Shown: in pieces, positions 12,915-55,265 of the stretch | Layout of the letters: the number at the start of each line of letters is the position of its first letter | Position numbering within the stretch: the stretch's first letter is position 1 | Notes under the pieces: model-generated | Database searches by the model: none | What the model saw: only the letters and a program-made list of their open reading frames with translations | Told to the model about the DNA's origin: nothing | Assembly: GCF_000473105.1 (NCBI RefSeq) | Contig: NZ_KI421498.1 | Location: 1,984,001-2,048,000 of the forward strand | Reading direction: 5' to 3' | DNA from: Phaeobacter inhibens DSM 16374 | Lineage (GTDB): Bacteria; Pseudomonadota; Alphaproteobacteria; Rhodobacterales; Rhodobacteraceae | Length of the DNA stretch: 64,000 nt | Translations under genes and position numbers: made by a program

Positions 12915-12926
12915 ATACGCCTGTAT

Positions 12927-36674: not shown

Positions 36675-39600
36675 TTGGGGCAATTGAAGACATCTGGGAA
36701 AACCACGGATCGCACTCCGTTCGATGCCTCGCGGTACAGCGGGGATATCGCCATTGTGGGTATGTCGCTCTGCGTGCCGGGCGCTCAGTCCCCCGGCGTG
36801 TTCTGGCAGAATCTGCGCGACGGTGTGGAATCGATCCGCCCTGTCAGCGAAGACGACCTGCTGGCCGCAGGCGAAGACCCCGAGACACTGTCCGACCCCA
36901 ACTATGTTGCCGCCACCGCAGCGCTGGAGGGGTACGCCGAGTTTGACGCCGACTTCTTCGGCTTCAGCCCGAAAGAAGCCGCGATCCTCGATCCGCAGCA
37001 CCGCAAATTCCTGGAGGTGGCCTGGAGCGCAATGGAGGATGCCGGTCATCCCCCCGAGAGTCTTGACGGTCCGATCGGGGTCTATGCCGGCTGCGGCATG
37101 GGGAGTTACTTCTACTTCAACATCTGCTCCAACAAGCCGCTGGTCGATGATGTGGGTATGTTCCTGCTGCGCCATACTGGCAACGACAAGGATTTCCTGT
37201 CCACCCGCGTCAGCCATGTGTTCGATCTAAAAGGCCCGTCGGTGAACATTCAGACCGCCTGCTCAACCTCGCTGGTGGCAGTGCATTACGCCAGCAAGGC
37301 GCTGCGCGAGGGCGAGTGTGAGATGGCCCTTGCCGGAGGCGTCACGATTGAGCTGCCGCAGGGCCGGGGCTACCTGTTCAAAGAGAACGAGATCCTGTCG
37401 CCGGACGGCCACTGCCATGCATTTGACCACCGTGCGCAGGGGACCGTTTTTGGCTCCGGCGCGGGGGCGGTTGCATTGCGCCGTCTGGAGGATGCGCTGG
37501 CGGATGGCGATCACATCTGGGCCGTCATCAAGGGTTCGGCGATCAACAATGACGGCGCCGACAAGGCGGGCTATCTCGCCCCCTCGGTTGAAGGGCAGGC
37601 CAGCGCCGTGCGACAGGCGCTGCGCGCCGCCAAGACCCCGCCGGATACCATCGACTATGTCGAATGCCACGGCACCGGAACCTATCTGGGCGACCCGATT
37701 GAAGTCACTGCCCTGACCGAAGCCTACCGCGAGACCACGCCCGCGGTCGGCTATTGCCGCATCGGCTCGGTGAAGACCAATATCGGGCACCTTGATACTG
37801 CCGCCGGTGTTGCCGGGTTAATCAAGACAACGCTCGCACTGCACCACGGCCAGATCCCGCCCAGTCTGGGGTATGAGGCACCGAACCCGGCCATTGATTT
37901 TGAAACCTCGCCTTTTGTGGTCAACGACCATTTGCGCGACTGGACCTCTGCCAAAGGGCCCCGCCGCGCGGCGATCAATGCGCTCGGGGTTGGCGGCACC
38001 AACGCCCATGCGGTGCTGGAACAAGCCGCCCCCCGTCCCGCCTCAGATGAGAGCGATTTCCCGTTCCACGTGCTGTGCCTTTCCGGCCATTCGAAAGCAG
38101 CGCTCGATGCCAATGCCACCGCTCTTGCGGCGCATCTACGCGCCAATCCCGATCTGCCGCTGGCGGATGTCGCCTATACGCTGAAGGAAGGCCGCCGCGG
38201 CTTTGCCAAGCGTCGGACATTGGTCGCCGAAACCCCGGAGGAGGCGGCCACCCTGCTCGAGGCGGGCGATCCGAGGCGCGTGTTTGACCATACTTGCGCA
38301 GAAAGCACACCTGAGGTGGTCTTCATGTTCCCCGGCGGCGGCGCGCAATATGCGGGCATGGCGCGGGATCTTTATGAAACTGAACCGGTTTTTGCCGATT
38401 GGATGGACCGGGGATTGGATCACCTTGAGAGCCAGCTAGACTATGACATTCGCGCGCTCTGGCTGCCTGATCCGGGACAGGAGGGCGCCGCCAATGCGCG
38501 CCTGCAACAGCCATCTGTGCAACTGCCGCTGATCATGATCGTTGAATTCGCGCTGGCGCAACTGTGGCTCAGCTGGGGCGTACGCCCCGCCGCGCTGGTG
38601 GGTCACTCCATGGGGGAGAACACCGCAGCTTGTCTGGCCGGGGTGCTGTCGTTTGAGGATTGCATCGATCTGGTGCTGCTGCGTGGACGGTTGTTCGACA
38701 AGGTGCCTGCGGGCGGCATGCTGTCGATCTCGCTGCCGCTGGAGGAGGTGGAGGCCAGATTGCCACCGGAGCTGGACATTGCCAGCGTCAATGCCCCGCG
38801 CCTCACAGCCGTCTCCGGACCGCAGGAGGCACTGGATGCGCTGGCGGCGCAGCTGACGGCGGATGAGGTGGATCATCAACGCATCCAGATCGACATTGCC
38901 GCTCACAGCCGCATGCTGGAGGGTATCCTGGAAGAGTATCGCCAGTTCCTGCGCGGGTTGACCCTGACAGCACCCGGTCGCCCGATCCTGTCCAACCGCA
39001 GCGGCAGGATCTTGAGTGACGCCGAGGCCACCGACCCCGAATACTGGGTCGGTCAGCTGCGCAATACGGTGATGTTTTCTGCCTGCCTGGACACGCTCGC
39101 CGAGCAGCCGAACCGGCTCTATCTTGAGGTTGGCCCCGGCAAGGCCTTGTCCTCTCTGGCGCAGATGGCCCCGGCAATCAAACCCGGTCAGGTGCTCAGC
39201 TCGCTGCGCCATCCCGACCAGACGATGGCCGATGACGCCTATTTCTTTGGCGTGATCGGACGGCTCTGGGCCGCCGGACTGGAGGCAGATTGGGATCAGA
39301 TCTGGGGTGATGCCCGCCGCCAGCGTCTTCCGCTGCCAACTTATGCGTTTCAGCGCAGCCGCTATTTCATCGAACCCGCGGCCCCGACCACTGCGGAAAC
39401 CGCAATCAGCACGCCTCTGCGCCACGACGATCTGTCACAATGGGGATCGCGCCCCAGCTGGCGACCGGCGCTGGCCAGCTGCGATCTCGACGTCACGGCG
39501 GAATTGGATCAACAGCCTGAAACCTGGCTGCTGTTTGAGGGCGACACCGGACTTTGCGCAGATCTGGCGCCACGGCTGGAGCAGGCAGGCCACAGAGTGG

Positions 39601-42600
39601 TACGGGTGGCCCCCGGCGACACCTATGCACAGCTGAGCGAGAGCCGCTATATGCTGGCCCCCGAACAGGGGCGCGCGGGCTATGATGCGCTGCTTGCCGA
39701 TCTGGCGCTGGCGGATCTTCTGCCCAGTCGGATCGGCCATTTCTGGCTGGTCACTGAGGGCGAGAGCTTCCGTCCCGGCGCCTCCTTCTTTGATCGCAAT
39801 CTGGAGATGGGCTTTTATGCGCTGACCGCCTTGGGGCAGGCTCTGGCCCAGATCGATCTGCCGCAGCCTGTGCATATGACGGTTTTCACCACCGGGGCAG
39901 CACAGCTGCGCAACGAGCCGCTGCCCTACCCGGAAAAGGCAATGATTGCCGGCCCTGCGGGCGTACTGCCGCGCGAGATCCCCGGCCTGACCTGCGCCAC
40001 GGTGGATATCGAGCTACCAACCCGCCCCAATGGTCTGCGCCGCTGGCTGTCGGAGGACGCTCCGGTGCCGATTACCGACCGCCTGCTGGAGGAGGTGCTG
40101 GCGGACCCGGCAAACGACACGGCACTCTGGCGCGGCGACAAGCGTTATGCCTTGCGGTGGCGCCCCGTGGCGCTGCCAGACAGCGAGCAAGCACCATCGT
40201 CCAACCCTGCCTTCCGCGAAGGCGGCACCTATCTGATCACCGGCGGTTACGGTGGGATCGGGCGCACGATTGCGGCGGATCTGATGCTGAGCTACGGCGC
40301 CAATGTCGTGCTGGTCTCGCGCGGCGGGTTGCCACCGCGCGATAACTGGGAAAGCTATCTCAATCGTCACAGCCCGGCCAATACAACCGCGCAACGCATC
40401 CGCGCGGTGATGGCACTGGACGCGATCGGCAGGGGACGGGTGTTGCCGCTGGCCGCGGATGTCTGCAACAGTGAGCAAATGCGCGCCGCTGTTGCAACGG
40501 CTGAGGAGACCTTTGGCCCGATCACCGGCGTCATCCACGGCGCCGGGCAGATCAACGATGCGCCGGTTCTCGCCAAGACAGAAGACGATATCGCCCAGGT
40601 TCTCGCTCCAAAGGTCAGCGGCCTCAGGGTACTGGACTCCATTTTCGGCACGGGTCAGCTGGAGTTGATGGTGCTGTTTTCCTCCTCCTCGACGGTGACG
40701 CGCCCGATTGGTCAGGTGGATTATGTCGCGGCCAATGAATACCTCAACGCCTTTGCCAAACATTGCACGGCTCTCTCCTCACCAGATCAGAGAACACATG
40801 TGGTCGCTGTCGACTGGGGGGTCTGGGCGGACGTCGGGATGGCGGCGGATGCCCTCGGCTCACACCAGCCCGAGGCAGGCAGTGACCCAAGCCCCTGCGA
40901 TCAGCCGCTGTTGGACAGCCGTCAGTTTTCCCATGACGGCAGCTTGCTGTTTCACCGCCGATTGACCAGCGATCAGTGGGTTCTGGATGAGCATCGCACC
41001 AAGAATGGCACCGCGCTGGTCCCCGGTACTGGTTATATCGAATATGCCGCTGAAGCGCTGGCAGAGTTGGGGCATGACGCGCCTTTCGCGCTGCGCGATC
41101 TCTATTTCCTGCGGCCTCTGGTGGTCACTGGAGCACCTTGCGATATGACCGTCCGGTTGACCCCGGTGGAACGCGGCTATGACTTTGCGGTCTACAGCCG
41201 CACCGCGGAAGGCTACGCCCTTCATGTGCAGGCGCTACTGGAAACCGATATCAATGGGGGCACGCCTGCGCCGGTCGATATCGCCGAGCTGAGGCTCCGC
41301 ACGCCAGAGATATCGGTGGCCACCCCCGCAGAACGACTGAAAACACCGCAGGAAGCGCATCTGAAATTCGGTCCTCGCTGGCATGTTCTGGAAGAAACAC
41401 GCCACAGTGCTGCAGAAGGTCTTGCCCAGCTGAAACTGCCGCAGATTGCCGAAGAAGACGGCACACTGCTGCCCCCCGGGCTGTTGGATCTGGCCACCGG
41501 CTGGGCCATTGATCTGGCCCCAGCCTATCGGGGCACCGCGCTTTGGGTGCCGGTATCCTATGACAGCATCCAGATTTTTGCCCCGCTGCCCGTTGAGTTG
41601 CTGAGCCATATGCGGCTGGTCGACAGCACCGCAAGTAGCGCACGGTTTGACATCACGCTGGCGGCAGCTGATGGCACTGTTGTGGCAGAAATCCGTGGGT
41701 TTCAAATGCAGCATCTGCCCGGCGCGACCAATCTGGCCCCGGCAGAGGGCGCAGACGCCAGCGCTGAGGATCTGGGCCTGATCGCTCCCGGCAGCGCGCA
41801 GCCCTTGTCACCGGAGGAACGTCGCCTTCACCGCAATATCGCCCAAGGGATCCGCGCCGAGGACGGCCCCGAGGCTCTGCGCCGTGCGCTCGCCACCGGG
41901 CTGTCGCAGGTGGTGGTCTCTTCTCTGGCGCTGCCGGATCTGATTGCACAGGCCGATCAACCGCCGCCGCAGAATGCCGACACCAGCCAGAGCTTTGAGC
42001 GACCACAACTGGACACCGATTACCTTGCCCCGCGCAATTCGGTCGAGGAAGAGATCGCGGCTCAGTTCGCACGGCTCCTTGGAGTGGCGCAGGTTGGGGT
42101 CGAAGACAGTTTCTTTGACCTCGGAGGTCATTCCCTGATCGCGGTCCGGCTCTTTGCACAGATCAAGCGAAGCTTTGGCGTTGATCTGGCGATCTCCACC
42201 CTGTTTGAGGCCCCCTCGGTTGCCAAGCTGGCAGAGCTGGTGATTGCGCGCACCGGTGGCGGTCTCACCACCGAGGCTCCGATTGATGCCGCAGGCGACA
42301 CACCGACTGAGGCCCCCAGCTATACCCATCTGGTCCAGCTGCACCCCGGTGATGGCACCGGGCGGCGACCGTTCTTCCTGGTCGCTGGCATGTTTGGCAA
42401 TGTGCTGAATCTGCGCCATCTGGCATTGATGGTTGGGAAGGACCGCCCCGTTTACGGGCTGCAGGCCCGCGGCCTGATCGGCGAGGATGCGCCACATGAC
42501 CGTTTGGACGAGGCCGCACGCGATTATCTTGTCGAAATCCGCAGCGTCCAGCCCGACGGCCCCTATCTGCTGGGCGGCTTCTCCGGCGGCGGGCTGACCG

Positions 42601-43172
42601 CCTATGAGATTGCCCAGCAATTGCAGGCTGAGGGTAAAGAGACTGCCGCGCTGATCCTTTTGGACACGCCGCTGCCGCTGCGCCCGGAGCTGTCGCGCCG
42701 CGACAAGGCGCTGATCAAATGGGCCGAACTGCGCAGCAAGGGGATCAGCTACCTGGGCGAATGGATCGGCAATCGTATCGCCTGGGAGATCGAGAAACGT
42801 CGCTATGCTGCCAGCGGCGACAGCGCAGCACCGGTGTTCAACAACCGCAAGGTCGAACTGGCCTTCCGCGCCGCCCTGCCCGCTTATGACCTGCAGCCTT
42901 GGTCCGGGCCACTGACGCTGTTCCGCCCGCCGCTGGACCGGCACTGGCAGGTCTCTGCCGGGAATTGGGTCAGCCGCGAGCGGGAATATGTCTTTGATGA
43001 CAACGACTGGACCCGCTGGGCCCCCGCAGTTGAGGTGGTCGAAGTCCCCGGCGATCACGACAGTATGGTTCTGGTGCCCAATGTCAGTGTATTGGCAGGA
43101 GAGGTGAAGGCGCGGCTGGATGCCGCCGACGCCGCAGCGCTGGCCCGCAGCACAGCAGAGGCCGCAGAATGA
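36675..43172 (+). CDS. type I polyketide synthase, KS-AT-KR-DH-ACP-TE
   Basis: A 2165-residue single-module PKS. KS residues ~22-450 (active C196 in TACSTSLVAV; HGTGTYLGDPIE; KTNIGHLD). AT ~535-850 (S645 in GHSMGE; IAAHS around H744 suggests malonyl rather than methylmalonyl). KR ~930-1400, including the structural half (TYLITGGYGGIGRT near 1185; Y1350 in YVAANEYLN). DH ~1420-1690 (H1440 in DEHRTKNGTALVPG; LLDLATGW). ACP ~1780-1850 (S1820 in GGHSL). Thioesterase ~1880-2150 (S1970 in GFSGGG; GDHDSM). The KR precedes the DH, which is unusual. The start is TTG at 36675 or 36684; AAGGA precedes both. It ends in an ATGA overlap with a glycosyltransferase. Confidence 0.95.
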   Translation: MGQLKTSGKTTDRTPFDASRYSGDIAIVGMSLCVPGAQSPGVFWQNLRDGVESIRPVSEDDLLAAGEDPETLSDPNYVAATAALEGYAEFDADFFGFSPKEAAILDPQHRKFLEVAWSAMEDAGHPPESLDGPIGVYAGCGMGSYFYFNICSNKPLVDDVGMFLLRHTGNDKDFLSTRVSHVFDLKGPSVNIQTACSTSLVAVHYASKALREGECEMALAGGVTIELPQGRGYLFKENEILSPDGHCHAFDHRAQGTVFGSGAGAVALRRLEDALADGDHIWAVIKGSAINNDGADKAGYLAPSVEGQASAVRQALRAAKTPPDTIDYVECHGTGTYLGDPIEVTALTEAYRETTPAVGYCRIGSVKTNIGHLDTAAGVAGLIKTTLALHHGQIPPSLGYEAPNPAIDFETSPFVVNDHLRDWTSAKGPRRAAINALGVGGTNAHAVLEQAAPRPASDESDFPFHVLCLSGHSKAALDANATALAAHLRANPDLPLADVAYTLKEGRRGFAKRRTLVAETPEEAATLLEAGDPRRVFDHTCAESTPEVVFMFPGGGAQYAGMARDLYETEPVFADWMDRGLDHLESQLDYDIRALWLPDPGQEGAANARLQQPSVQLPLIMIVEFALAQLWLSWGVRPAALVGHSMGENTAACLAGVLSFEDCIDLVLLRGRLFDKVPAGGMLSISLPLEEVEARLPPELDIASVNAPRLTAVSGPQEALDALAAQLTADEVDHQRIQIDIAAHSRMLEGILEEYRQFLRGLTLTAPGRPILSNRSGRILSDAEATDPEYWVGQLRNTVMFSACLDTLAEQPNRLYLEVGPGKALSSLAQMAPAIKPGQVLSSLRHPDQTMADDAYFFGVIGRLWAAGLEADWDQIWGDARRQRLPLPTYAFQRSRYFIEPAAPTTAETAISTPLRHDDLSQWGSRPSWRPALASCDLDVTAELDQQPETWLLFEGDTGLCADLAPRLEQAGHRVVRVAPGDTYAQLSESRYMLAPEQGRAGYDALLADLALADLLPSRIGHFWLVTEGESFRPGASFFDRNLEMGFYALTALGQALAQIDLPQPVHMTVFTTGAAQLRNEPLPYPEKAMIAGPAGVLPREIPGLTCATVDIELPTRPNGLRRWLSEDAPVPITDRLLEEVLADPANDTALWRGDKRYALRWRPVALPDSEQAPSSNPAFREGGTYLITGGYGGIGRTIAADLMLSYGANVVLVSRGGLPPRDNWESYLNRHSPANTTAQRIRAVMALDAIGRGRVLPLAADVCNSEQMRAAVATAEETFGPITGVIHGAGQINDAPVLAKTEDDIAQVLAPKVSGLRVLDSIFGTGQLELMVLFSSSSTVTRPIGQVDYVAANEYLNAFAKHCTALSSPDQRTHVVAVDWGVWADVGMAADALGSHQPEAGSDPSPCDQPLLDSRQFSHDGSLLFHRRLTSDQWVLDEHRTKNGTALVPGTGYIEYAAEALAELGHDAPFALRDLYFLRPLVVTGAPCDMTVRLTPVERGYDFAVYSRTAEGYALHVQALLETDINGGTPAPVDIAELRLRTPEISVATPAERLKTPQEAHLKFGPRWHVLEETRHSAAEGLAQLKLPQIAEEDGTLLPPGLLDLATGWAIDLAPAYRGTALWVPVSYDSIQIFAPLPVELLSHMRLVDSTASSARFDITLAAADGTVVAEIRGFQMQHLPGATNLAPAEGADASAEDLGLIAPGSAQPLSPEERRLHRNIAQGIRAEDGPEALRRALATGLSQVVVSSLALPDLIAQADQPPPQNADTSQSFERPQLDTDYLAPRNSVEEEIAAQFARLLGVAQVGVEDSFFDLGGHSLIAVRLFAQIKRSFGVDLAISTLFEAPSVAKLAELVIARTGGGLTTEAPIDAAGDTPTEAPSYTHLVQLHPGDGTGRRPFFLVAGMFGNVLNLRHLALMVGKDRPVYGLQARGLIGEDAPHDRLDEAARDYLVEIRSVQPDGPYLLGGFSGGGLTAYEIAQQLQAEGKETAALILLDTPLPLRPELSRRDKALIKWAELRSKGISYLGEWIGNRIAWEIEKRRYAASGDSAAPVFNNRKVELAFRAALPAYDLQPWSGPLTLFRPPLDRHWQVSAGNWVSREREYVFDDNDWTRWAPAVEVVEVPGDHDSMVLVPNVSVLAGEVKARLDAADAAALARSTAEAAE

Positions 43173-44239
43173 TCAAAGCCGCCGCTCCCTCCGCCGCGCC
43201 GCCTTTGGACACCTCCTCGGGTGGTGCAGAAGCGCGCATTCTGACCATCATCCTGAATTACAAGACGCCTCAGATGACGCTGGACTGCGCCGCCGCCGCG
43301 CTGGAGCAGATGGAAGAGCTGCCCGGTGAAGTGGTGATCATCGACAACGGCTCCGCCGATGGCTCTTATGAGCAGTTGCTCACGGCGGTGCAGGCGCGCG
43401 GCTGGCTGGACAGCGGCCGCCTGCGCCTGATCGCCAGCGACCGCAACGGCGGGTTTGGGGCGGGGATGAACATCGGCTTTCGCCTCGGTCTCGCCGATGG
43501 CAGCGCGCCTGAGTTCTATTATCTGCTGAACTCGGATGCCTTTGTGCAGCCAGGCGCGATCCGCGCATTGCGGGATTTCTTGCTGGCCACGCCAACCGCC
43601 GGGCTTGTTGGCTCCTACGTGCGGGGCACTGATGGGACGCCTCATTGCACCGCCTTTCGCTTTCCCACCATCGCGGGCGAGTTTGAATCCTCGGTGCGAA
43701 CCGGCATTGTGACGCGCCTGCTGAAAGATGCCGTGGTGCCGATGGAGATCCCCACCGAGCCGACACAGCTGGATTGGACCGCTGGCGCCAGCCTGATGAT
43801 CCGTCGCGAGGTGATTGATGCGGTTGGAGGTTTTGACGAGACATTCTTTCTCTACTTTGAGGAAACCGAGCTGTGCCATCGCGCTGCCCGCGCCGGGTGG
43901 AGCACGCATTATCTGCCCACAAGCGAGGTCGCCCATGTGGGATCCGCCTCAACCGGGATGAAGGATTGGCAGCGCACACCGCAATACTGGTTCGACAGCC
44001 GGTTGCACTACTTTCTCAGCACCCATGGGCGCGCTTACACGGTCGGGGCCACATTAGCGCTGATTAGCGGCAGCCTGCTCTATGGGCTGCGCCGGCTGGT
44101 GTCGGACAAACCGGCCTCGGACCCGCCGTATTTTCTGCGGGATCTGATCGTTCATCATAGCCGCGCGATCTTTCGCCGCCGCAAAACCCAGCCTATGGAA
44201 ACCCGCCAGACCCCGTCTCAACCGGAGGAGCAGAAATGA
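43169..44239 (+). CDS. glycosyltransferase family 2 (rhamnosyltransferase-like)
   Basis: A 356-residue GT2. ILTIILNYKTPQMTLDCAA, IDNGSADGS, SDRNGGFGAGMNIGFR and the metal motif LLNSDAF identify the WbbL/RfbN-like branch. WTAGASLMIRREVIDAVGGFDETFFLYFEE is the acceptor/base region. A hydrophobic patch near residue 300 could attach it to the membrane. It sits between the PKS and the NRPS and overlaps both by 4 nt, which ties sugar transfer to the assembly-line operon. Confidence 0.9.
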   Translation: MIKAAAPSAAPPLDTSSGGAEARILTIILNYKTPQMTLDCAAAALEQMEELPGEVVIIDNGSADGSYEQLLTAVQARGWLDSGRLRLIASDRNGGFGAGMNIGFRLGLADGSAPEFYYLLNSDAFVQPGAIRALRDFLLATPTAGLVGSYVRGTDGTPHCTAFRFPTIAGEFESSVRTGIVTRLLKDAVVPMEIPTEPTQLDWTAGASLMIRREVIDAVGGFDETFFLYFEETELCHRAARAGWSTHYLPTSEVAHVGSASTGMKDWQRTPQYWFDSRLHYFLSTHGRAYTVGATLALISGSLLYGLRRLVSDKPASDPPYFLRDLIVHHSRAIFRRRKTQPMETRQTPSQPEEQK

Positions 44240-47200
44240 CCCCATTCTCCTGTATCGTTCTTGGCAATGAATCACTGCTTGTCGCCTGCGCGGACACATT
44301 GCTGGCCCGCGGCCACAGCATCGCCGCCGTGGTAACCAAAGACGCCGAAATCCGCCAGTGGGCCGCTGACAAGGGCCTGAGCGTGCTGGAGGATGCACGC
44401 GACTTTGGTGGATCCGTGGACTGGCTGCTGTCCATCGCCAACCTTGAGATCATCCCCGACAGCGTGCTGGCCCGCGCAGCGAATGGCGGCGTCAATTTTC
44501 ACGACGGTCCGTTGCCGCGCTATGCCGGCCTCAACACGCCGAACTGGGCCCTGATCGAAGGGGCCACGGAGTACGGCATCACCTGGCACATGATCGAGGG
44601 CGGGGTGGATGAGGGCGACATCCTCGCCCAGCGCCTGTTTGCGATTGCCGGGGATGAGACGGCCTATAGCCTCAACGCTAAATGCTACGCTGCCGCGATG
44701 GACAGCTTCGGCGATGTGCTGGGCCAGCTGGAAACCGGCACACTGGCGCGGCAGGCGCAGGATTTCAGCACCCGCAAGCTCTATACACGGGCCAACCGAC
44801 CCGAAGCGGGCGCCCTGCTGGATCTGGCGCAGCCTGCAACCGATTTGCACCGGTTGATACGTGCGCTTGATTTCAACGGTTACTGGAACCCGCTCTGCGC
44901 CGCCAAGGTGCAGTTGAGTGCGAACAGTGGCGTGCCGATAGCGCTGATCGGCACCGCAGAGATCGCAGAAGGATCCGGAGTGCCGGGCACCGTGCTGAGC
45001 GTCGACGCCAAGACGGTGACACTGGCCTGCGGCGACGGTGCGCTGCGGCTTGGCGGATTGCACCACAGCGACGGGCGCCCGATCCGCGCCACCGATCATG
45101 TCCAAACGGGGGATGTTCTGCCGTCCCTTGATGCAGAAGACCGCCGCGATCTGACCCGACAACTGACAGCAACCCAGGCGAGCGAGAGCAAATGGCGCAA
45201 GGCGCTGGCCGCCCTGCCCGCTGTGGATCTGCCGTTGGCAGGTCCAGCAATTGATGCCCCCGCGGACATTACGCATCACACACTCTCCCATAATGTGGCC
45301 CTGACAGAGATTGATGTGCTAAGCGTCGCCCTTGCCCTCACGCTGTGCAGTTCCGGAGCGGAGGCTGCCGGGATCGCGCTCAGCACCGATGCGCTGCAGG
45401 AGGCTGCCATCGCCGGGATGATCTGTGACTGGGTGCCGGTGCAGGCCCGCCGCGATGCACCCTTTGACGATTTGCGATCCCGGTTGACTGCGGAGTTGGA
45501 CAGCACCCGCAACAGCGGTGGATTTGCGGCCGATCTGATCGCCCGCGCGCCGGAGCTGCGACAGACCGGGGGCAGCGGCCTCTGCCCGGATATCGGCTGC
45601 ATGCTGGGGCGCGCGCAACATATAGACGGATGTGTGGCGACCCTTTCCCTGTCAGAGCGCGCGCTGGCCCTGCATATCGATACAGCCCGACTGGATGCGC
45701 AAGCGACCAAGCTGTTGGTGGGCCGGGTCGAAATGCTGATCGACGCGCTGGCCTCGGCGTCCGGTGGCACCATGGCCGATCTACCCGTCCTGCCAGAGGC
45801 CGAACGGCGGCAGATGTTGCTGGACTGGAACAGCACCGCCCGTTCCGACACCGGGCAAAGCACCATACCGGCGGAGTTTGCGGCCCAGGTTGCACAAACC
45901 CCGGAGGCCACGGCGCTGGTTTATGAGGGCGAGAGCCTGACCTATGCCGAACTCTCCGCGCAGGTCGATGATCTGGCTGCCATCCTGCGTGACCGCGGCG
46001 TGGCACCGGGCAGCCATGTCGGCATCTATCTGGGACGCGGACCTGATCTGGTGATTGCCGCCCTCGCCACGATGGCGGCGGGCGGGGCCTATGTGCCGCT
46101 GGATCCGGCCTATCCGGCGGATCGCATCGCACATTTCATCACCGATAGCGCCGCAAGCGTGATCCTGACCGACAGCGGACACCGGGACCAGCTGCCCGGC
46201 ACATTGTCAGCCGATATCCTATGCCTTGACGCCCTGCCCGAAGTGCCCGCCGCGGCTGAAACGGCTGCCACAGCGCCCGGCCCACAGGATCTGGCCTATC
46301 TGATCTACACGTCCGGCTCCACCGGCACGCCCAAAGGCGTGATGGTGCGCCATGGCAATGTTGCGAATTTCTTTGCCGCCATGGATGACCGCATCCCACA
46401 TCAGCCGGGCGATTGCTGGCTGGCGGTGACGAGCCTGTCATTCGACATCTCTGTGCTGGAACTGTTCTGGACCCTGTCGCGCGGCTTCAAACTGGTGCTG
46501 TCCAGTGATGAGGCGCGGTTGCAACTCTCCAATGGGCCGATTGCCACCAGCGACCGGGGCATGGACTTCAACCTGTTTTACTGGGGCAATGACGACGGCC
46601 CCGGTCCGCGCAAATATGAACTGCTGCTGGAGGGTGCGAAATTCGCCGATCAGCACGGGTTCAACGCCGTCTGGACACCGGAGCGGCATTTCCACGCTTT
46701 TGGCGGCCCCTATCCGAACCCGGCGGTGACCGGCGCGGCGGTGGCTGCGGTCACGAAAAATATCGGTGTGCGTGCGGGCTCCTGCGTGGCGCCGCTGCAT
46801 CACCCGGCCCGCATTGCCGAGGAATGGTCAGTGATCGACAACCTGACCGACGGCCGCGCCGGTATTGGTTTTGCCTCTGGCTGGCAGCCGGATGATTTCA
46901 TCCTGCGCCCCGAAAACACCCCCCCCGCCAACAAACCTGCGCTGTTTGAGGCGATCGAGACCGTGCGCAAGCTCTGGCGCGGCGAAGAGGTTGCCTTCCC
47001 GCGCAAGGATGGGGGCGACCACGCGGTGCTGACCCAGCCGCGCCCGGTGTCAAAGGAGCTACCCGTCTGGGTCACCACTGCCGGCAACCCAGAAACCTGG
47101 CGCGAGGCGGGCAGTATCGGGGCCAATGTGCTGACCCATCTGCTGGGCCAGAGCATCGAAGAGGTCGCGGGCAAGATCACCATCTATCACGACGCCCTGC

Positions 47201-48870
47201 GTGCCGCCGGTCACGATCCGCGCGATCACAAGGTCACGTTGATGCTGCACAGCTATCTGGCCGACACCCGCGAAAACGCGCGCGCCACCGCACGTGAACC
47301 GATGAAGGATTACCTGCGCGCAGCGGCTGGTCTGATCAAGCAATACGCCTGGGCCTTTCCTGCGTTCAAGAAACCTGAAGGGGTGAAAAACCCGTTTGAG
47401 ATGGACCTCGGCATGCTGTCGGCAGAAGAGCTGGAGGCCATTCTGGACTTCGCCTTTGAGCGGTATTTTGAAGACTCCGGCCTGTTTGGCACCATTGCCG
47501 ATGCCCTACAACGGGTGGAGCAGCTCAAGCAGATCGGCGTTGATGAGATTGCCTGTCTGATCGACTATGGCATCGCGCCGGAGATCGTACTGGAGGGGCT
47601 AAAGCCCCTTGCGGAGGTGCTGCGCCTTGCCAACGCCCCGCAAGAACTGGCGGCGGAGGATGTCTCGCTTGCGGCGCAGATCCTGCGCCATGGCGTCACC
47701 CATATGCAATGCACCCCGTCGATGGCGCGGATGATCACCGCGGATGCCGATGCGCGCCCGGTGCTGGGGCGGCTGTCGCATCTGCTGATCGGAGGGGAGG
47801 CGCTGCCGGGCGACCTAGTGGCCAGCCTCCGCGCGACAACCCGTGCCGAAATCCACAATATGTATGGGCCGACAGAGACCACGATCTGGTCAACCATGCA
47901 GACCCTATCCGGCGTGCCCGCCGGGACCGCGCAAATCGGGGCGCCGATTGCCAATACCACTGTTTATGTCGTCACGGACGATCTGACTCCTCAGCCAGTT
48001 GGTGTGCCCGGCGAATTGCTGATCGGCGGCGCCGGTGTAACCGCCGGTTACTGGCAGCGCCCCGAGCTGACGGCGGAGCGTTTCATCCCTGATCCCTTTG
48101 CCGATGCGGGGACGCATGTGCCCTCAACCCACCTATACCGTACCGGGGATCTGGTGCGCTGGCGTGGTGACGGTCAGCTGGAATTCCTTGGCCGCAGCGA
48201 TCATCAGGTAAAAATCCGCGGCCAGCGGATCGAACTGGGTGAAATCGAGGCCGCGCTGGCAGCGCTGGACGGAATCACTGGGGCTGTTGTCGTCGCCCGC
48301 GAAACCGCAGGTGACACCCGGCTGATCGCCTATGTAACCGGGCCTGTGGCACCGGATCAGGCGGTGCTGAAGACCGCGCTCACGCAACAACTGGCTGCAG
48401 TCATGGTGCCGAGCCATATCGAACATCTCGCTGCCTTCCCGCTGACCCCAAACAAGAAGATCGACCGCAAGGCCCTGCCGGATCCCAAGCCGGTACAGAT
48501 TTCCGTACCCACCTCCGACGCGCCGCTCAGCGCCGGGGCCCAGAGCAAGATTGCCGAAATCTGGAGTGACATCCTTGGCATCAGTGGTATTGGGGCTGAG
48601 GATAATTTCTTCACCCTCGGTGGCCATTCCCTGCTGGCGGTACAGGCCCACCGCGATATTCGCGGCGCGCTTGATGTACCAAAGCTGTCGATTACCGATA
48701 TTTTCCGCTTCCCGACGCTGTCAGGATTGGCCGGGCATATCGACGCGCTGACAGGGGCCCCTGCGACGGAGGACGCGACAGTAGCCCCGGCGGTTGATCC
48801 GGCCGCGAAATCCGACATGATGTCCAAGCGCCGCGCAATGCGGGCCAACCGAAAGGCACGCAGCGGATGA
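44236..48870 (+). CDS. NRPS: formyltransferase / half C domain / A domain with inserted luciferase-like monooxygenase / PCP
   Basis: A 1544-residue protein. Residues 1-~300 are a formyltransferase with its C-terminal domain; the triad N87-x-H89 and D125 has the same spacing as in methionyl-tRNA formyltransferase. Residues ~330-520 match only the C-terminal lobe of a condensation domain, with no HHxxxDG. The A domain runs ~530-1430 (A3 YTSGSTGTPKG near 690; A4 FDISVLELF at 736; A5 NMYGPTE at 1208; A10 NKKIDRK near 1403). It is split after A4 by a ~350-residue MupA/Atu3671-type FMN luciferase-like monooxygenase (~776-1125). The specificity residues read D-I-L-Q-L-G-M-I-W-K, one change from the glycine code. 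The PCP serine is S1465; a basic tail follows. No TE. The layout recalls the MtaG/MelG-type A(MOx) modules. Confidence 0.93.
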   Translation: MTPFSCIVLGNESLLVACADTLLARGHSIAAVVTKDAEIRQWAADKGLSVLEDARDFGGSVDWLLSIANLEIIPDSVLARAANGGVNFHDGPLPRYAGLNTPNWALIEGATEYGITWHMIEGGVDEGDILAQRLFAIAGDETAYSLNAKCYAAAMDSFGDVLGQLETGTLARQAQDFSTRKLYTRANRPEAGALLDLAQPATDLHRLIRALDFNGYWNPLCAAKVQLSANSGVPIALIGTAEIAEGSGVPGTVLSVDAKTVTLACGDGALRLGGLHHSDGRPIRATDHVQTGDVLPSLDAEDRRDLTRQLTATQASESKWRKALAALPAVDLPLAGPAIDAPADITHHTLSHNVALTEIDVLSVALALTLCSSGAEAAGIALSTDALQEAAIAGMICDWVPVQARRDAPFDDLRSRLTAELDSTRNSGGFAADLIARAPELRQTGGSGLCPDIGCMLGRAQHIDGCVATLSLSERALALHIDTARLDAQATKLLVGRVEMLIDALASASGGTMADLPVLPEAERRQMLLDWNSTARSDTGQSTIPAEFAAQVAQTPEATALVYEGESLTYAELSAQVDDLAAILRDRGVAPGSHVGIYLGRGPDLVIAALATMAAGGAYVPLDPAYPADRIAHFITDSAASVILTDSGHRDQLPGTLSADILCLDALPEVPAAAETAATAPGPQDLAYLIYTSGSTGTPKGVMVRHGNVANFFAAMDDRIPHQPGDCWLAVTSLSFDISVLELFWTLSRGFKLVLSSDEARLQLSNGPIATSDRGMDFNLFYWGNDDGPGPRKYELLLEGAKFADQHGFNAVWTPERHFHAFGGPYPNPAVTGAAVAAVTKNIGVRAGSCVAPLHHPARIAEEWSVIDNLTDGRAGIGFASGWQPDDFILRPENTPPANKPALFEAIETVRKLWRGEEVAFPRKDGGDHAVLTQPRPVSKELPVWVTTAGNPETWREAGSIGANVLTHLLGQSIEEVAGKITIYHDALRAAGHDPRDHKVTLMLHSYLADTRENARATAREPMKDYLRAAAGLIKQYAWAFPAFKKPEGVKNPFEMDLGMLSAEELEAILDFAFERYFEDSGLFGTIADALQRVEQLKQIGVDEIACLIDYGIAPEIVLEGLKPLAEVLRLANAPQELAAEDVSLAAQILRHGVTHMQCTPSMARMITADADARPVLGRLSHLLIGGEALPGDLVASLRATTRAEIHNMYGPTETTIWSTMQTLSGVPAGTAQIGAPIANTTVYVVTDDLTPQPVGVPGELLIGGAGVTAGYWQRPELTAERFIPDPFADAGTHVPSTHLYRTGDLVRWRGDGQLEFLGRSDHQVKIRGQRIELGEIEAALAALDGITGAVVVARETAGDTRLIAYVTGPVAPDQAVLKTALTQQLAAVMVPSHIEHLAAFPLTPNKKIDRKALPDPKPVQISVPTSDAPLSAGAQSKIAEIWSDILGISGIGAEDNFFTLGGHSLLAVQAHRDIRGALDVPKLSITDIFRFPTLSGLAGHIDALTGAPATEDATVAPAVDPAAKSDMMSKRRAMRANRKARSG

Positions 48871-49580
48871 CCCTGGTTGAGCCATCCTTGCGCAGCGTCC
48901 GGCACCGGGAGCTAATCCGTCCGCTGTTTGATGGCAGCGTTGCAGTCGAGGTCTGTGACCCGCAGGCCGATCCACCTCCGCCCTTCCCTGAGGAGGCCAC
49001 CTGCCTGTCACCAAACGCAGTGGAAAAACGGCGGCGCGAGTTCGCAGCGGGCCGCGCCGCTGCGCATCAGGCGATGGCAACGCTGGGCCTGACACCAAGC
49101 GCGATTCCCGTCAGCCCCAAACGCGCGCCGATCTGGCCGTCTGGGCTGGTCGGGTCGATCAGCCATTGTCGCAGCACCGCCGTTGCCGTCGTCGCCCTGC
49201 CGCAGCAAATGCGGGGGCTTGGCGTTGATGTCGAGGAGGACACGCCACTCGCCGATGATCTGATCCCGCAGATCTGCCGCCCGGCGGAGCGTCTTTGGCT
49301 GGCACAGCAGAACAATCCTGGCCAGTTGGCCAAAGTGATATTCTCCGCCAAGGAAGCCGCGTATAAATGCCAGTATCGCCTGAGCGAGCGGTTTTTCGGC
49401 TTTGACGGGATGGAACTGGAGATGAATGTGGCAGACGACACCGATCAGATCAGCGGGCAGTTTTCGGCGCGGTTTACGGCTGATCAGCCGCCCTTCCTGA
49501 CGGGGGATAGGATTGAGGGAGGATTTGTCATTGGGGAGGGGCTGATCGCGACCGCCGCACAGCTGCCACAGGTGCGATGA
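48867..49580 (+). CDS. 4'-phosphopantetheinyl transferase (EntD/Sfp type)
   Basis: A 237-residue PPTase of the EntD-like group. Motifs: KRRREFAAGRAAAHQA, GSISHCRSTAVAVV, GVDVEE (metal-binding Asp/Glu) and FSAKEAAYKCQY. It loads phosphopantetheine on carrier-protein serines, here presumably the PKS ACP and the NRPS PCP. It overlaps the NRPS and the following gene by ATGA junctions, so carrier activation is built into the operon. Confidence 0.93.
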   Translation: MTLVEPSLRSVRHRELIRPLFDGSVAVEVCDPQADPPPPFPEEATCLSPNAVEKRRREFAAGRAAAHQAMATLGLTPSAIPVSPKRAPIWPSGLVGSISHCRSTAVAVVALPQQMRGLGVDVEEDTPLADDLIPQICRPAERLWLAQQNNPGQLAKVIFSAKEAAYKCQYRLSERFFGFDGMELEMNVADDTDQISGQFSARFTADQPPFLTGDRIEGGFVIGEGLIATAAQLPQVR

Positions 49581-50479
49581 TCGGACGGCGCGGTTTTCTT
49601 GCACTCCTGTCTCTGCTACCGATCGGCGCGCAGGCGACACCCTTTGCGCTGCCACAGCTAAGCCCCCCGGCAGGGCCGATGCAGGTGTTTCACCTCGGCC
49701 ACTCACTGGTGGGTCCGGATATGCCACATATGGTGCAACAGCTGGCGCCGGAGGGGCATCGTTATAACAGCCAGCTTGGCTCCGGCACGCCCCTGCAGGA
49801 TCACTGGGAGCCGGATCTGGATATCCTGCATTTCGATCAGGTGAACACGCCTCCGGTCTGGCGCGACGCGCGCGAGGCGGTTGGATCGGGCGATTATGAC
49901 GCCGTCGTCCTGACAGAGATGGTCGAGCTACGCGATGCGTTGCGTTATTTCAAAGGCGCGCGGTATTTTCGTCGCTGGGCGGATCTGGCCCGCGATGGCG
50001 CGCCGGAAACGCGGATCTATCTTTATGAGACCTGGCACCCGCTGGACACCGCTGATGGCTGGCTGTCGCGGATCGACAACGATCTGGATCAGCTGTGGCT
50101 TGGCGGGCTGGCCGGGTCTGACAGCCGCCGCAACCCGAAGCGCCCTGCCTATCTGATCCCTGCGGGACAGGTGATGGCGGCGGTTGTGCGCGCTGCTGAG
50201 GCCGGACAAATCGACGGGTTGACCCGCCGCGAAGACCTCTTTGCCCGCACCGATGAGGGCGCGCTGGATCAGATCCATATCAACGATCTGGGCGCCTATA
50301 TCGTGGCGCTTACCCATGTCAGCACATTGTATCATCGCTCCCCGGTTGGCTTGCCCCATCAACTGCAACGGCCCGATGGCACTCCGGCTGACGCCTTTAG
50401 CGCTGAGGGCGCGCGGCAGGTGCAGGATATCGTCTGGCAGGTGGTCACCAGCCACCCCCGCACTGGTGTGTCCCCATGA
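49577..50479 (+). CDS. secreted SGNH-hydrolase-like protein with Tat-type signal
   Basis: 300 residues. The N-terminus GRRGFLALLSLLPIGAQA is a short twin-arginine-like signal (RR at 4-5) with likely cleavage after AQA. The mature protein looks like an SGNH/GDSL hydrolase: S43 in HLGHSLVGPD, and D231-x-x-H234 in DQIHINDLG as block V. It is probably an esterase or acyltransferase acting outside the cytoplasm, for example on acylated glycan. It is paralogous to the first ~270 residues of the next gene (shared GHSL, ETWH, PAGQ/KAGQ, IHxNDLG and SPVGLPHQL). Confidence 0.75.
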   Translation: MIGRRGFLALLSLLPIGAQATPFALPQLSPPAGPMQVFHLGHSLVGPDMPHMVQQLAPEGHRYNSQLGSGTPLQDHWEPDLDILHFDQVNTPPVWRDAREAVGSGDYDAVVLTEMVELRDALRYFKGARYFRRWADLARDGAPETRIYLYETWHPLDTADGWLSRIDNDLDQLWLGGLAGSDSRRNPKRPAYLIPAGQVMAAVVRAAEAGQIDGLTRREDLFARTDEGALDQIHINDLGAYIVALTHVSTLYHRSPVGLPHQLQRPDGTPADAFSAEGARQVQDIVWQVVTSHPRTGVSP

Positions 50480-53046
50480 CGCTGGCGGATCTGGTCGCCA
50501 GTGTGGTCATGGTCGGGCACTCCCTGTTCGGCCCCGACAATCCGGTGATGCTAGAGCAGCTGCTGGCGCAGCAACCTGCCCTTACCTCCGGGCAGACCGG
50601 GGACACCATCACAGTCGAGGCGCAAATCATCAATGGCGCTCCGCTCAGCTATAATTGGGCCCATGCTGATCAGGCCGAGGGGATCAACGCCCGCACCCGG
50701 TTAACGGACGGCATCGATGTGCTGATCGTGACCGAAGCGATCCCACTGGCCAACCATCTGAAATGGAGCGACACCGAGGGGGCGCTGGCAGAGTTCTACA
50801 CGCTTGCCTATGGTGCCAATCCCGAGGTGGAGGTCTATCTGCAGGAGACCTGGCACAGTCTGAGCAGCGGCACCGGAGCTGAGGTGCCGTTCGACGCCGG
50901 CGCAGCGATACCATGGCGTGACCGTTTGTCAGCGGATCTGCCCCGCTGGCAGAACGTTGTCGATACGGTCAACCGCAAAACCGGCGGCGATATCAAACTG
51001 CTGAAGGCGGGACAGGCGATGGCCAGGCTGGATGACGCCATTCAGGCAGGAACCGTGCCGGGCCTGAGCCGGATCGGAGAGGTCTTCGCCGACGACATTC
51101 ACCCCAATGATCTGGGGTTCTATTTCCTCTCTGCCCTGCAATATGCGGTGTTGACTGGCCAGTCGCCAGTTGGTCTGCCGCATCAGCTGCGTTCGGCGTG
51201 GGGTGGTCGCTACGAGGCGCCCGCGCCTGCACTGGCGCGACGGCTGCAGGAAATCGCCTGGGATGCGGCATGGGACCGGGTTCAACGGGCATCGCTGCCC
51301 TCAGATCCACCGCCCCTGCCCGCGGATCCGGTTCTGCCCGCCTTGAACCGGCCTGTGCAGGCCAGTCAGACCATTGCATCTGACGCAGCCACGGTGAGGA
51401 CAGACCCCGCTCTGATCGACGTGCCCAGGCAGCCGATTGGTATGAACCTTGCCTCTATCGCCGATTGGAGCCCGCAGGCCCCCTTCCTTGATCACTTCAA
51501 GACCGCGCGCCCTTGGATTGGGCATCTCGCAGGTCAATGGGGGGGCGCGGATTACTCTGATCTGGCGGCAGCGGGATATCTGGATCGGGACGGCTGGCCC
51601 ACTGCCATCCCGCCGGAACTGGGCTCAGTCGGAACCTTGATCCTCACGGATCTGCCGGAAGAGGCCAGCAGCCTCACAGGGCGGTATGTGCTGCAGTTTG
51701 AAGGCGACGGGATTGTCGAGGTCACGGGCCGGGCAAGAAACATCCGCTACGGCAAAAGCGAAATCCGATTTGACTATGCGCCAGGGCCCGGCGCGGTTGA
51801 AATCCGCATTCAGCGCAGTGACCGGCAAGGTGTCGGCGACTACATTCGTAACATCACTGTGGTGATGGAAAGACACCTGCCCGACTGGCAGGCCGGGGCC
51901 GTGTTCAACCCGGATTGGATCGCCCGGATGCGCGGGTTTGCTGCGCTGCGTTTCATGGACTGGATGGCCACCAACGACAGCACTCAGGTGGGATGGGAGG
52001 ATCGCCCGCGAGTGCAGGACTACAGCTGGACCGCGAAAGGCGCCCCGGCGGAGGTGCTGGTGGACCTGGCCAATCGCCTGCAGGCCGATCCGTGGTTCAC
52101 GCTGCCGCATATGGCCGACGATGTCTATATCCGCAACTATGCCCGACTGGTCCGCGACCAGCTGGATCCGGGACTGACCGCCTATGTGGAATACTCCAAC
52201 GAGGTCTGGAACTGGCAGTTCGAACAGGCGGTCTGGGCCGATGATCAGGCGCGCGCGCGCTGGGGCGGGCAGGATCTGTGGATGCAGTTCTACGGGGGCC
52301 GCGCCGCCGAGGTTGCGATGATCTGGACCGAGGTATTCGGCGACGCGGCAGAGGACCGTCTGGTGCGTGTCGTCTCTACCCAGACCGGTTGGTTGGGGCT
52401 TGAAGAGCAAATACTGGCCGCTCCCCTGTGGGTGGCCGAAGACCCGACGCGGCGCCCACCCGCGCGCCTTTTTGATGCCTATGCGGTGACTGGTTACTTT
52501 GGTGGCATTCTCGGTCTGCCCGACCGCGCGCCCACCCTGCGCGCCTGGATCGCACAAAGCCGGGAACAAGCGGCGGCGGCAGCTGAGGCCAAGGGTCTGC
52601 ACGGGGCTGCAGCTGCGGAGTTTGTGGAGGCTCACCAATATGATGCCGCCAGCGCCCTGGCTGCCGCAGAGTTGCGCGACGGGCTTGTCTCCGGCAGTTC
52701 CGAGGATACTGTCAGCGATCTTGTGGGGCGGGTCCTGCCCTATCATGCCAAGGTCGCCGAGGCGCATGGGCTTGACCTGATCATGTATGAGGGCGGCAGC
52801 CATGTGGTGGGTCTGGGCGCGATGGTGGATGATGAAATGCTGACCGGGTTCTTCAGCCATTTCAACTACACCGAGGAGATGGGCGCGCTGTACCGCAGTC
52901 TTCTGGCAGGCTGGCCGGACTTGGGCGGCAGCCTGTTCACCGCCTATTCGGATGTCTCATCCCCCGGCAAATGGGGAAGCTGGGGCAGCCTGCGCTATGT
53001 GAGCGATGACAACCCGCGCTGGCGCGCGCTGGAGGCCGCAAAATGA
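50476..53046 (+). CDS. SGNH-like domain fused to a clan GH-A-like glycosidase domain
   Basis: 856 residues. Residues ~1-265 repeat the SGNH-like domain of the preceding gene (S16 in MVGHSLFGPD; D206-DI-H209). A proline-rich linker at ~275-310 follows. Residues ~310-856 resemble an (alpha/beta)8 glycoside hydrolase: N575-E576 in YVEYSNEVWNW as acid/base and E772 in IMYEGGSHVVG as nucleophile would fit clan GH-A. A beta-sandwich-like insert occupies ~390-460. I see no signal peptide at the ATG at 50476, although the partner gene has one. Substrate unknown; tailoring of the locus polysaccharide is inferred. Confidence 0.75.
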   Translation: MTLADLVASVVMVGHSLFGPDNPVMLEQLLAQQPALTSGQTGDTITVEAQIINGAPLSYNWAHADQAEGINARTRLTDGIDVLIVTEAIPLANHLKWSDTEGALAEFYTLAYGANPEVEVYLQETWHSLSSGTGAEVPFDAGAAIPWRDRLSADLPRWQNVVDTVNRKTGGDIKLLKAGQAMARLDDAIQAGTVPGLSRIGEVFADDIHPNDLGFYFLSALQYAVLTGQSPVGLPHQLRSAWGGRYEAPAPALARRLQEIAWDAAWDRVQRASLPSDPPPLPADPVLPALNRPVQASQTIASDAATVRTDPALIDVPRQPIGMNLASIADWSPQAPFLDHFKTARPWIGHLAGQWGGADYSDLAAAGYLDRDGWPTAIPPELGSVGTLILTDLPEEASSLTGRYVLQFEGDGIVEVTGRARNIRYGKSEIRFDYAPGPGAVEIRIQRSDRQGVGDYIRNITVVMERHLPDWQAGAVFNPDWIARMRGFAALRFMDWMATNDSTQVGWEDRPRVQDYSWTAKGAPAEVLVDLANRLQADPWFTLPHMADDVYIRNYARLVRDQLDPGLTAYVEYSNEVWNWQFEQAVWADDQARARWGGQDLWMQFYGGRAAEVAMIWTEVFGDAAEDRLVRVVSTQTGWLGLEEQILAAPLWVAEDPTRRPPARLFDAYAVTGYFGGILGLPDRAPTLRAWIAQSREQAAAAAEAKGLHGAAAAEFVEAHQYDAASALAAAELRDGLVSGSSEDTVSDLVGRVLPYHAKVAEAHGLDLIMYEGGSHVVGLGAMVDDEMLTGFFSHFNYTEEMGALYRSLLAGWPDLGGSLFTAYSDVSSPGKWGSWGSLRYVSDDNPRWRALEAAK

Positions 53047-53885
53047 CACTGCTTTTGAGCGTGCTGATACCGGCCCACAATGAGGCAGGCTATATCGGGG
53101 CCTGCCTATCGGCGCTATTTGCAAGCGATCCGCTACCAGCCGGTGCAACGGGAGAGGTGCTGGTGATCGCCAATGGCTGCGCCGACACCACCGTCGCAGA
53201 GGCCCGTGCCGTAACTGCGCCGCAGGGGTGGACCTGTAGAGTGATCGACCGGGCCGAGGGTGGAAAGATCGGCGCACTTGCAGATGGCGAGGCGCGGGCC
53301 ACGGGATCTGTTCTGGTCTATCTTGATGCGGATGTGATCGTATCCCCCCCTTTGCTGGCGCAGATCTGCGCCGCGTTGAAGGGGGATCGGCCACGCTATG
53401 CCAGCGGCGCCCCACAGTTGTCTCCTGCCCGCAGTCAGGTCAGCCGTCTATATGGGCGGTTCTGGGCCAAGCTGCCCTTTGTTCGCGAAGGGGTGCCGGG
53501 GTTCGGCCTCTTTGCGATGAACCGCGCCGGGCGGGCGCGCTGGGAGCAATGGCCGGATATAATCGCTGACGATATCTTTGCCCGGCTTCGCTTTGATCCG
53601 GCAGAGCGGATCCGGGTGCAGGCCAGCTATCAATGGCCGCTGATCGAGGGGTTTCGCAATCTGGTACGGGTGCGCCGCCGCCAGAATGCCGGGGTAGCGG
53701 AGATTGCAGAACGGTTTCCCGCTCTGCTGACCAACGAGGACGTTCACCGACCAGGCCTGGCTGTAATCCTGCGGCTGGCGCTGCGTGATCCGGCGGGGTT
53801 TATGACCTATTCTGCCGTGGCGCTGGCTGTGAAATCACCGCTGTTTCGCACCCGAAATGAGGCGCGCTGGACCCGTGGGCGATAG
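53043..53885 (+). CDS. glycosyltransferase family 2 protein
   Basis: A 280-residue GT2: LLSVLIPAHNEAGYIGACLSAL, VIANGCADTTVAEAR, GGKIGALADGEARA and the DxD motif VYLDADVIV. IIADDIFARLRF is the catalytic acid region. The last gene of the overlapping operon; its ATG overlaps the preceding stop. Donor and acceptor unknown. Confidence 0.88.
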   Translation: MTLLLSVLIPAHNEAGYIGACLSALFASDPLPAGATGEVLVIANGCADTTVAEARAVTAPQGWTCRVIDRAEGGKIGALADGEARATGSVLVYLDADVIVSPPLLAQICAALKGDRPRYASGAPQLSPARSQVSRLYGRFWAKLPFVREGVPGFGLFAMNRAGRARWEQWPDIIADDIFARLRFDPAERIRVQASYQWPLIEGFRNLVRVRRRQNAGVAEIAERFPALLTNEDVHRPGLAVILRLALRDPAGFMTYSAVALAVKSPLFRTRNEARWTRGR

Positions 53886-55121: not shown

Positions 55122-55265
55122 GAGGACGACGGCCCATTTTATGCAAGAGTTATCGTAGGGTATCGTCAGTTGCGGCGCTTGCCCAGCATTGCCGCGAAGG
55201 TGCCGTGGAATTGACGCCTTTGAGGATCAGTGTCGCAAGTGTATCGCAAAAATTCGAGGATATTG

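Follow-up and report, generated by a model that had tools for sequence, protein, structure and literature searches.

In the window analysed here, a 64,000-nucleotide stretch of the Phaeobacter inhibens DSM 16374 chromosome (NZ_KI421498.1, positions 1,984,001 to 2,048,000), a type I polyketide synthase (PKS) and a nonribosomal peptide synthetase (NRPS) are encoded inside a polysaccharide locus. Both belong to a run of seven genes that also specifies a family 2 glycosyltransferase located between them (GT2c), a 4'-phosphopantetheinyl transferase (PPTase), two proteins with an SGNH fold (SGNH1 and SGNH2) and a further family 2 glycosyltransferase (GT2d). Our comparative analysis reveals a strong link between this PKS-NRPS line and polysaccharide genes. 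Thus, we propose that the PKS-NRPS line probably supplies a secreted polysaccharide with a building block or a decoration.

Using the formyltransferase portion of the NRPS as query, we searched 195 related genomes and obtained matches at E 3e-50 or better in 51, all within the window's family (Rhodobacteraceae) and including the window's own genome. Neighbourhoods were taken from 46 of the other 50 NRPS-positive genomes (all except G028, G038, G090 and G101) and from four further family genomes, and a scan of a genome collection added 51 loci. We dropped three duplicates, eight satellite loci, one PKS-less contig and 15 loci that were not comparable or came from outside the family; the resulting synteny set held 89 loci, the window itself excluded. 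In three of these the contig or stretch stopped before a long PKS could be seen, and in two no upstream gene was visible, which left 84; many surveyed loci come from close relatives and are not independent. The PKS-GT2c-NRPS order was intact in 84/84. The same-strand gene lying at most 600 nt upstream of the PKS encoded Wzy in 57/84 loci and Wzx in 23/84 (80/84 together); the remaining four loci had WecG, a Wzy at greater distance, a kinase (far) or GT2d (far) instead. Where Wzx lies upstream, the second arrangement, Wzz usually follows the NRPS or the PPTase on the same strand, so that the line sits between the flippase and the chain-length genes. When we considered the 45 neighbourhoods of at least 30 kb, Wzx or Wzy was found in 44, Wzz in 43 and the kinase in 41. 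An earlier note on this DNA had asked whether the glycosyltransferases, SGNH proteins and Wzx always accompany the PKS-NRPS genes. Within the family, GT2c and Wzx or Wzy do so almost without exception, whereas an SGNH1-like match occurs in only 28/51 NRPS-positive genomes.

We also examined co-occurrence across whole genomes. The window-type Wzy was present in 54/195 genomes. Among the 120 family genomes, 49 carried both Wzy and NRPS, 2 NRPS only, 5 Wzy only and 64 neither; that is, Wzy was found in 49/51 NRPS-positive versus 5/69 NRPS-negative genomes. With one genome per genus (114 genomes), the corresponding counts were 43, 2, 5 and 64. Completeness is 85% and 84% in the two NRPS-only genomes, one of which has an NRPS fragment match only, and Wzy was present in 48/48 NRPS-positive genomes that are at least 90% complete. 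The distance between Wzy and NRPS was 30 kb or less in 42 of the 49 genomes and 178 and 420 kb in two, and in five the genes lay on different contigs. Two unrelated window genes served as controls in the same 120 genomes, counted in the same order. The values were 44, 7, 49 and 20 for 2-keto-3-deoxy-galactonokinase (p 0.076), and 51, 0, 65 and 4 for urate oxidase (p 0.14). Urate oxidase was rejected as sole control because 116/120 family genomes have it, which makes it nearly uninformative, and the galactonokinase was added as the second. Neither gene shows a partnership with the NRPS comparable to that of Wzy.

The four-gene core is known. PKS, glycosyltransferase, NRPS and PPTase have been described as a conserved roseobacter cluster of unknown product, credited to Martens et al. 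2007 and present in 28/57 genomes according to a 2015 paper (PMC5014874, PMC4337385), and the PKS and NRPS genes of P. inhibens T5 are listed in PMC4062626. The window contains the same four genes, and Leisingera sp. JC1 and several ANG isolates from those papers are among our surveyed loci. We infer that the window core is the published cluster, equating the two by gene description rather than by sequence comparison. The earlier note's suggestion of an undescribed system is therefore not supported. The passages of these papers that describe the cluster leave polysaccharide genes unmentioned; the Wzx/Wzy embedding and the Wzy partnership are what our analysis adds. Our literature searches, which covered open-licence PubMed Central, turned up no paper connecting the cluster with a polysaccharide.

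On balance, we favour a model in which the locus directs the synthesis of a Wzx/Wzy-type exopolysaccharide and the PKS-NRPS line would supply an acyl group to its repeat unit. Alternatively, the line could yield a small molecule that GT2c glycosylates and the flippase exports, or that is co-regulated with the polysaccharide, without ever being attached to the polymer. The cluster is listed in the literature as a secondary metabolite cluster (PMC5014874, PMC4337385), a TE domain normally releases its product, and a glycosyltransferase lies within the operon. However, a free metabolite would not need Wzy, and the partner of the line is this polymerase even when the two genes are unlinked; Wzz and the autokinase also accompany the line, and the glycan link recurs in distant taxa. 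We therefore regard the free small molecule as rather unlikely.

This recurrence was seen outside the family on Aminobacter and Shinella plasmids (Rhizobiales) and in G738, G629 and G401, where glycan genes surround a related NRPS-PKS or NRPS. In an Acidimicrobiales bin (L168) a related NRPS occurs with a sulfatase, Wzy_C and a glycosyltransferase on a short contig without PKS, and in a Rhodothermales bin (L177) a related NRPS-PKS occurs with Wzz and GT4. The line is also present alongside glycan genes on Parasedimentitalea, Ruegeria and Paracoccus plasmids. The short contigs G425, G675, L179 and L180 were left out of this judgement of context, and the Rhizobium jaguaris and Myxococcus matches, being larger or multi-module NRPS clusters, were not counted as members. 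Distant formyltransferase-NRPS genes also occur on Rhizobium and Bradyrhizobium plasmids (L229 and others); the one case inspected belongs to a larger NRPS cluster, and its plasmid is predicted to be conjugative. One record titled Nocardioides marinus (L151) holds a complete roseobacter-type locus with about 60-70% protein identity, and is probably mislabelled or contaminated.

Several observations weigh against an acyl-decorated polysaccharide. In G459, an FT-A-LLM-PCP protein (formyltransferase, adenylation, luciferase-like monooxygenase, carrier protein) and a KS-AT-KR-DH-ACP-TE protein form a pair with zero glycan genes among seven annotated neighbours, and a related pair in G777 has zero among three. 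These pairs adjoin MFS or TRAP transport genes, which speaks for a free small molecule, and they suggest that the line can serve something else and that its tie to glycans is not universal. In the mapped relatives outside the family, no GT2c was found to separate PKS from NRPS, and it is therefore not an obligatory partner of the line. Within the family, the G370 neighbourhood has neither Wzx nor Wzy, though it has Wzz and the kinase, and five genomes have Wzy without the NRPS. The Fisher values for co-occurrence ignore shared ancestry, with one genome per genus as the sole adjustment for phylogeny. Moreover, co-localisation does not in itself establish a covalent link, and a plain TE could just release a free acid. 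Intact core genes without glycan genes, which the earlier note had named as the finding that would speak against its proposal, were thus absent from the examined family neighbourhoods and present in the distant relatives G459 and G777. The proposal that the product belongs to the glycan draws strong comparative support from near-invariant co-localisation in the family, the Wzy co-occurrence and recurrence in other families and phyla, and is limited by these two pairs.

What the line could make is suggested by its modules. The NRPS label is confirmed by Pfam, but the module is atypical, with the order formyltransferase-A[luciferase-like monooxygenase]-PCP and no Pfam condensation domain. Between the formyltransferase (residues 61-288) and the A domain lies a condensation-like remnant (about 300-545, by eye) resembling the C-terminal half of a condensation domain; the HHxxxDG motif is absent from 98/98 aligned NRPS sequences. 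Across ten relatives, conservation was lowest in this stretch in 9 and highest in the monooxygenase in 8. The formyltransferase N-x-H motif is kept in 94/98 sequences and the PCP serine in 97/98, so the protein has the formyltransferase motif, A domain and PCP of a formyltransferase starter module and lacks a condensation domain. The monooxygenase (residues 778-1128) is inserted in the A domain between A4 and A5 and belongs to TIGR04020 (MupA/Atu3671 luciferase-like monooxygenase; 471.7 bits, cut-off 244.45). The A-domain code of the window NRPS is DILQLGMIW; this code stands in 48/98 sequences and DILQxGM(I/V)W in another 46, with four diverging further, and points to glycine. In the distant relatives G459, G401, G777 and L177, where both genes lie on one strand, the NRPS comes first and the PKS second, which fits a glycine starter passed to the PKS.

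This module resembles known glycine modules with an embedded monooxygenase (MOX). The part of a 2025 survey dealing with them gives DILQLGMIWK as the code shared by all four glycine A domains with MOX (PMC12283262), and the corresponding part of a 2023 paper places the myxothiazol and melithiazol monooxygenase between a4 and a5, where it hydroxylates the glycyl alpha carbon (PMC10204066). Both features, the glycine code and the a4-a5 insertion, are found in the window NRPS, which we set alongside the myxothiazol, melithiazol and solanimycin modules by description. The window NRPS differs in being a starter with a formyltransferase, without a functional condensation motif and followed by a PKS. 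The nearest solved relative of its monooxygenase domain is PuwE (6ket, E 3.2e-101). The palmerolide, necroxime and puwainaphycin systems were nevertheless set aside as models in favour of the glycine modules because PuwE, in the account consulted, hydroxylates a fatty acyl chain. Linear gramicidin synthetase LgrA likewise has an N-terminal formyltransferase before A-PCP, and LgrA chains match the formyltransferase domain of the window NRPS at E about 1e-6. The best matches of the window's formyltransferase domain are, however, ArnA and methionyl-tRNA formyltransferases rather than LgrA, and LgrA is not known to have an embedded monooxygenase.

As to the PKS, the motifs of the KS cysteine, AT serine (AAHS specificity motif), KR tyrosine, DH histidine and aspartate, ACP serine and TE serine are kept in most of 88 aligned relatives. 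The KS cysteine deviates in two rows, both of them Myxococcus sequences. Its start was tentatively placed at the first start of the open frame, a TTG.

Our model suggests the following order of events. Glycine would be loaded onto the PCP by the A domain, as its code predicts, and N-formylated by the formyltransferase domain. The embedded monooxygenase would then oxidise the glycyl alpha carbon, as proposed for myxothiazol, melithiazol and solanimycin, after which the hydroxyl could be kept or the carbinolamide could collapse to a glyoxylyl thioester. The KS would accept this unit for malonate extension and processing by KR and DH, assuming a single round, and the TE would free a short acyl group of roughly four carbons. 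GT2c or the TE may place this group on a lipid-linked oligosaccharide whose synthesis the sugar phosphotransferase would initiate. The unit would be flipped by Wzx and polymerised by a dedicated Wzy, as co-occurrence suggests. Where present, the SGNH and GH-A proteins may act on the polymer outside the cytoplasm by removing acyl groups, adding them back or trimming the chain. The predicted product is an oxidised N-formylglycine extended by malonate, with glycine, formate and malonate as its predicted sources, in or on a Wzy-polymerised repeat; we infer both this chemistry and the covalent link to the glycan.

More speculatively, the PKS-NRPS unit may be a stoichiometric part of the backbone. 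GT2c would then glycosylate the product of the line, saccharide blocks would be joined via an amino-acid-derived polyketide, and the dedicated Wzy would polymerise only the hybrid. We consider this improbable. If true, such saccharide-polyketide copolymers would form a class with a wide distribution among marine roseobacters and further occurrences in rhizobia, Acidimicrobiales and Rhodothermales.

The window PKS is not alone in its association with a surface glycan. RkpA and WcbR are type I PKS-like enzymes required for or linked to surface polysaccharide; unlike the window PKS, they have a lipid role and are not known to have an NRPS partner. PKS-like fatty acid synthases have been suggested as makers of anchors or primers in rhizobial K-antigen and Burkholderia capsule loci. 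By analogy, the window line could supply a lipid or acyl anchor or a primer for the polysaccharide, and an iterative mode of the PKS is compatible with its sequence. We give this little credence: the initiating sugar transferase of the Bac_transf type and the Wzx/Wzy genes imply an undecaprenyl-linked start, and the starter module indicates glycine rather than a fatty acyl chain.

Still less do we believe that the location is coincidental, the line being a cluster for an iron-related or signalling metabolite and merely sharing mobile replicons with a polysaccharide locus. The locus is plasmid-borne in some taxa, and TIGR04020 is named after Atu3671, which we take to be a member of an Agrobacterium siderophore cluster. 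Yet the association holds through several local gene orders and with Wzy elsewhere in the genome, and annotation of the genes flanking the line, in the window and on the annotated plasmids, showed no siderophore transporter.

The core has been known for nearly two decades as a conserved roseobacter orphan and has been assigned to secondary metabolism. If the line does decorate an exopolysaccharide, searches of organic extracts would miss its product. Attention would then shift to the surface glycan of these bacteria, which live attached to surfaces and algae, and assembly-line biosynthesis would extend to routine polysaccharide tailoring.

The organisation of the seven genes is that reported in the earlier note: all seven open reading frames (ORFs) were recovered at the same coordinates, and each of the six junctions (43169, 44236, 48867, 49577, 50476 and 53043), read from the sequence, is a 4-nt ATGA overlap. 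Sampling 400 kb of this chromosome gave any possible 4-nt overlap in 19/166 same-strand neighbour pairs and an ATGA overlap in 13/166, the longest run being one. Judged against this sample, the run of six is more than chance. The background came from a crude ORF caller that missed the PPTase, so only 4/6 cluster junctions were scored in the window, and we attach no p value since neighbouring junctions inside one operon cannot be assumed to be independent. Among measurable family loci, with duplicates and loci outside the family left out, 4-nt overlaps were found in 41/89 for PKS>GT2, 71/91 for GT2>NRPS, 63/81 for NRPS>PPTase, 27/60 for PPTase>SGNH1, 43/52 for SGNH1>SGNH2 and 52/60 for SGNH2>GT2; all six were present in 12 of the 44 loci in which all could be measured. 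The conservation of overlaps at most junctions, not all, argues for a tightly coupled operon. The overlaps support translational coupling, but they vary between relatives and do not alone demonstrate the single co-translated unit of the earlier note.

Pfam agrees with the PKS, GT2 and PPTase labels. SGNH1 and SGNH2 have no Pfam or NCBIfam match, and their labels are borne out by predicted structures. The AlphaFold2 model of SGNH1 (pLDDT 90.7) matches the DUF4886 entry 4i8i (Z 19.6, rmsd 3.0, 224 aligned), and S43, D231 and H234 are invariant across 28 sequences. In the SGNH2 model (pLDDT 78.2), the SGNH domain matches 4i8i (Z 21.2, rmsd 2.9, 230 aligned) and the barrel matches the glycoside hydrolase family 51 (GH51) entry 2c7f (Z 23.0, rmsd 3.1, 285 aligned). 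N575-E576 and E772 are invariant in 28 sequences and are placed after strands beta4 and beta7. These models confirm an SGNH fold with a predicted Ser-Asp-His triad, and the barrel has the predicted acid/base Glu after beta4 and nucleophile Glu at beta7 of a clan GH-A glycosidase. No GH51 sequence-family match was found for SGNH2 in Pfam or NCBIfam, and its sequence search against solved structures gave two matches only (E 0.46 and 0.91). An identity as ordinary Lipase_GDSL_2 proteins (PF13472) was also considered for the SGNH proteins and rejected; the whole-genome Pfam search returned three matches, none in the window. PslG-type periplasmic glycosidases are, like the SGNH2 barrel, clan GH-A-like hydrolases coded inside a polysaccharide locus. 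The SGNH2 barrel differs in being fused to an SGNH domain and in having GH51 arabinofuranosidases, then heparanase/beta-glucuronidase, as its closest solved folds.

In some relatives the barrel stands alone after a signal-like N-terminus, and in others a longer SGNH-barrel fusion carries such an N-terminus (by eye), so the glycosidase is probably exported. Phaeobacter SGNH2, unlike these exported-looking relatives, has no evident export signal at 50476-50560 by eye. At L114, L115 and L116 (G040, G032 and G043), SGNH1-SGNH2-GT2d lies at a second, separate locus away from PKS-NRPS and looks like a movable three-gene module. The SGNH and glycosidase genes are accessories, frequent yet not universal.

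The flanking genes are collected in Table 1. The window contains the initiating sugar transferase, Wzx and glycosyltransferases of a Wzx/Wzy-dependent locus. Of the full Wzx/Wzy/Wzz set with an initiating transferase described before, Wzx and the sugar transferase are supported, whereas Wzy and Wzz score below curated cut-offs; position and co-occurrence support the putative Wzy assignment. The outer-membrane exporter Wza was not found among the annotated window genes, and no genome-wide search for it was made. The ORF at 34046-34909 (+) was rejected as spurious because the opposite strand encodes the WecG/TagA/CpsF-type glycosyltransferase.

Table 1. Genes of the PKS-NRPS line and of the flanking polysaccharide locus, with positions in the window.
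Feature	Coordinates	Strand	Evidence
GT2-like	31928..33037	+	PF13704
GT2b, GT2	33037..34020	+	PF00535
WecG/TagA/CpsF-type glycosyltransferase	34040..34792	-	TIGR00696, 102.8 bits, cut-off 69
Wzy-type polymerase / O-antigen ligase family (putative)	34954..36417	+	PF04932 E 0.00029, below cut-off; co-occurrence with NRPS
Type I PKS, KS-AT-KR-DH-ACP-TE, 2165 aa	36675..43172	+	Pfam domains; conserved motifs
GT2c, family 2 glycosyltransferase between PKS and NRPS	43169..44239	+	PF00535; order survey
NRPS starter module	44236..48870	+	Pfam; TIGR04020; A code; formyltransferase motif
4'-phosphopantetheinyl transferase (PPTase)	48867..49580	+	PF17837, PF01648
SGNH1, SGNH-fold protein, signal-like N-terminus (by eye)	49577..50479	+	predicted structure; invariant residues
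SGNH2, SGNH domain (about 6-272) and clan GH-A-like barrel (about 317-856)	50476..53046	+	predicted structure; invariant residues
GT2d, family 2 glycosyltransferase	53043..53885	+	PF00535
Family 4 glycosyltransferase	53904..55121	-	PF13692, PF00534
Wzx-type flippase	55230..56630	+	PF13440, PF01943
Wzz / chain-length determinant-like	56664..57950	-	TIGR03007 82.6 bits, PF02706 E 0.0029, both below cut-off
Tyrosine autokinase-like (BY-kinase)	58023..59120	-	TIGR03018 E 2e-16, below cut-off
Initiating sugar phosphotransferase (Bac_transf)	59171..60157	-	PF02397, 190.5 bits

Elsewhere in the window, the ORF caller found two other ATGA overlaps, near 1355 and 1891, and the Omp85 and TamB genes (25175-27118 and 27115-30780, +) share a 4-nt TTGA overlap. 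Finally, tandem glycine riboswitch aptamers (Rfam RF00504) lie at 12748-12923 (-), more than 20 kb from the NRPS with the predicted glycine code, and probably belong to a glycine-cleavage gene.

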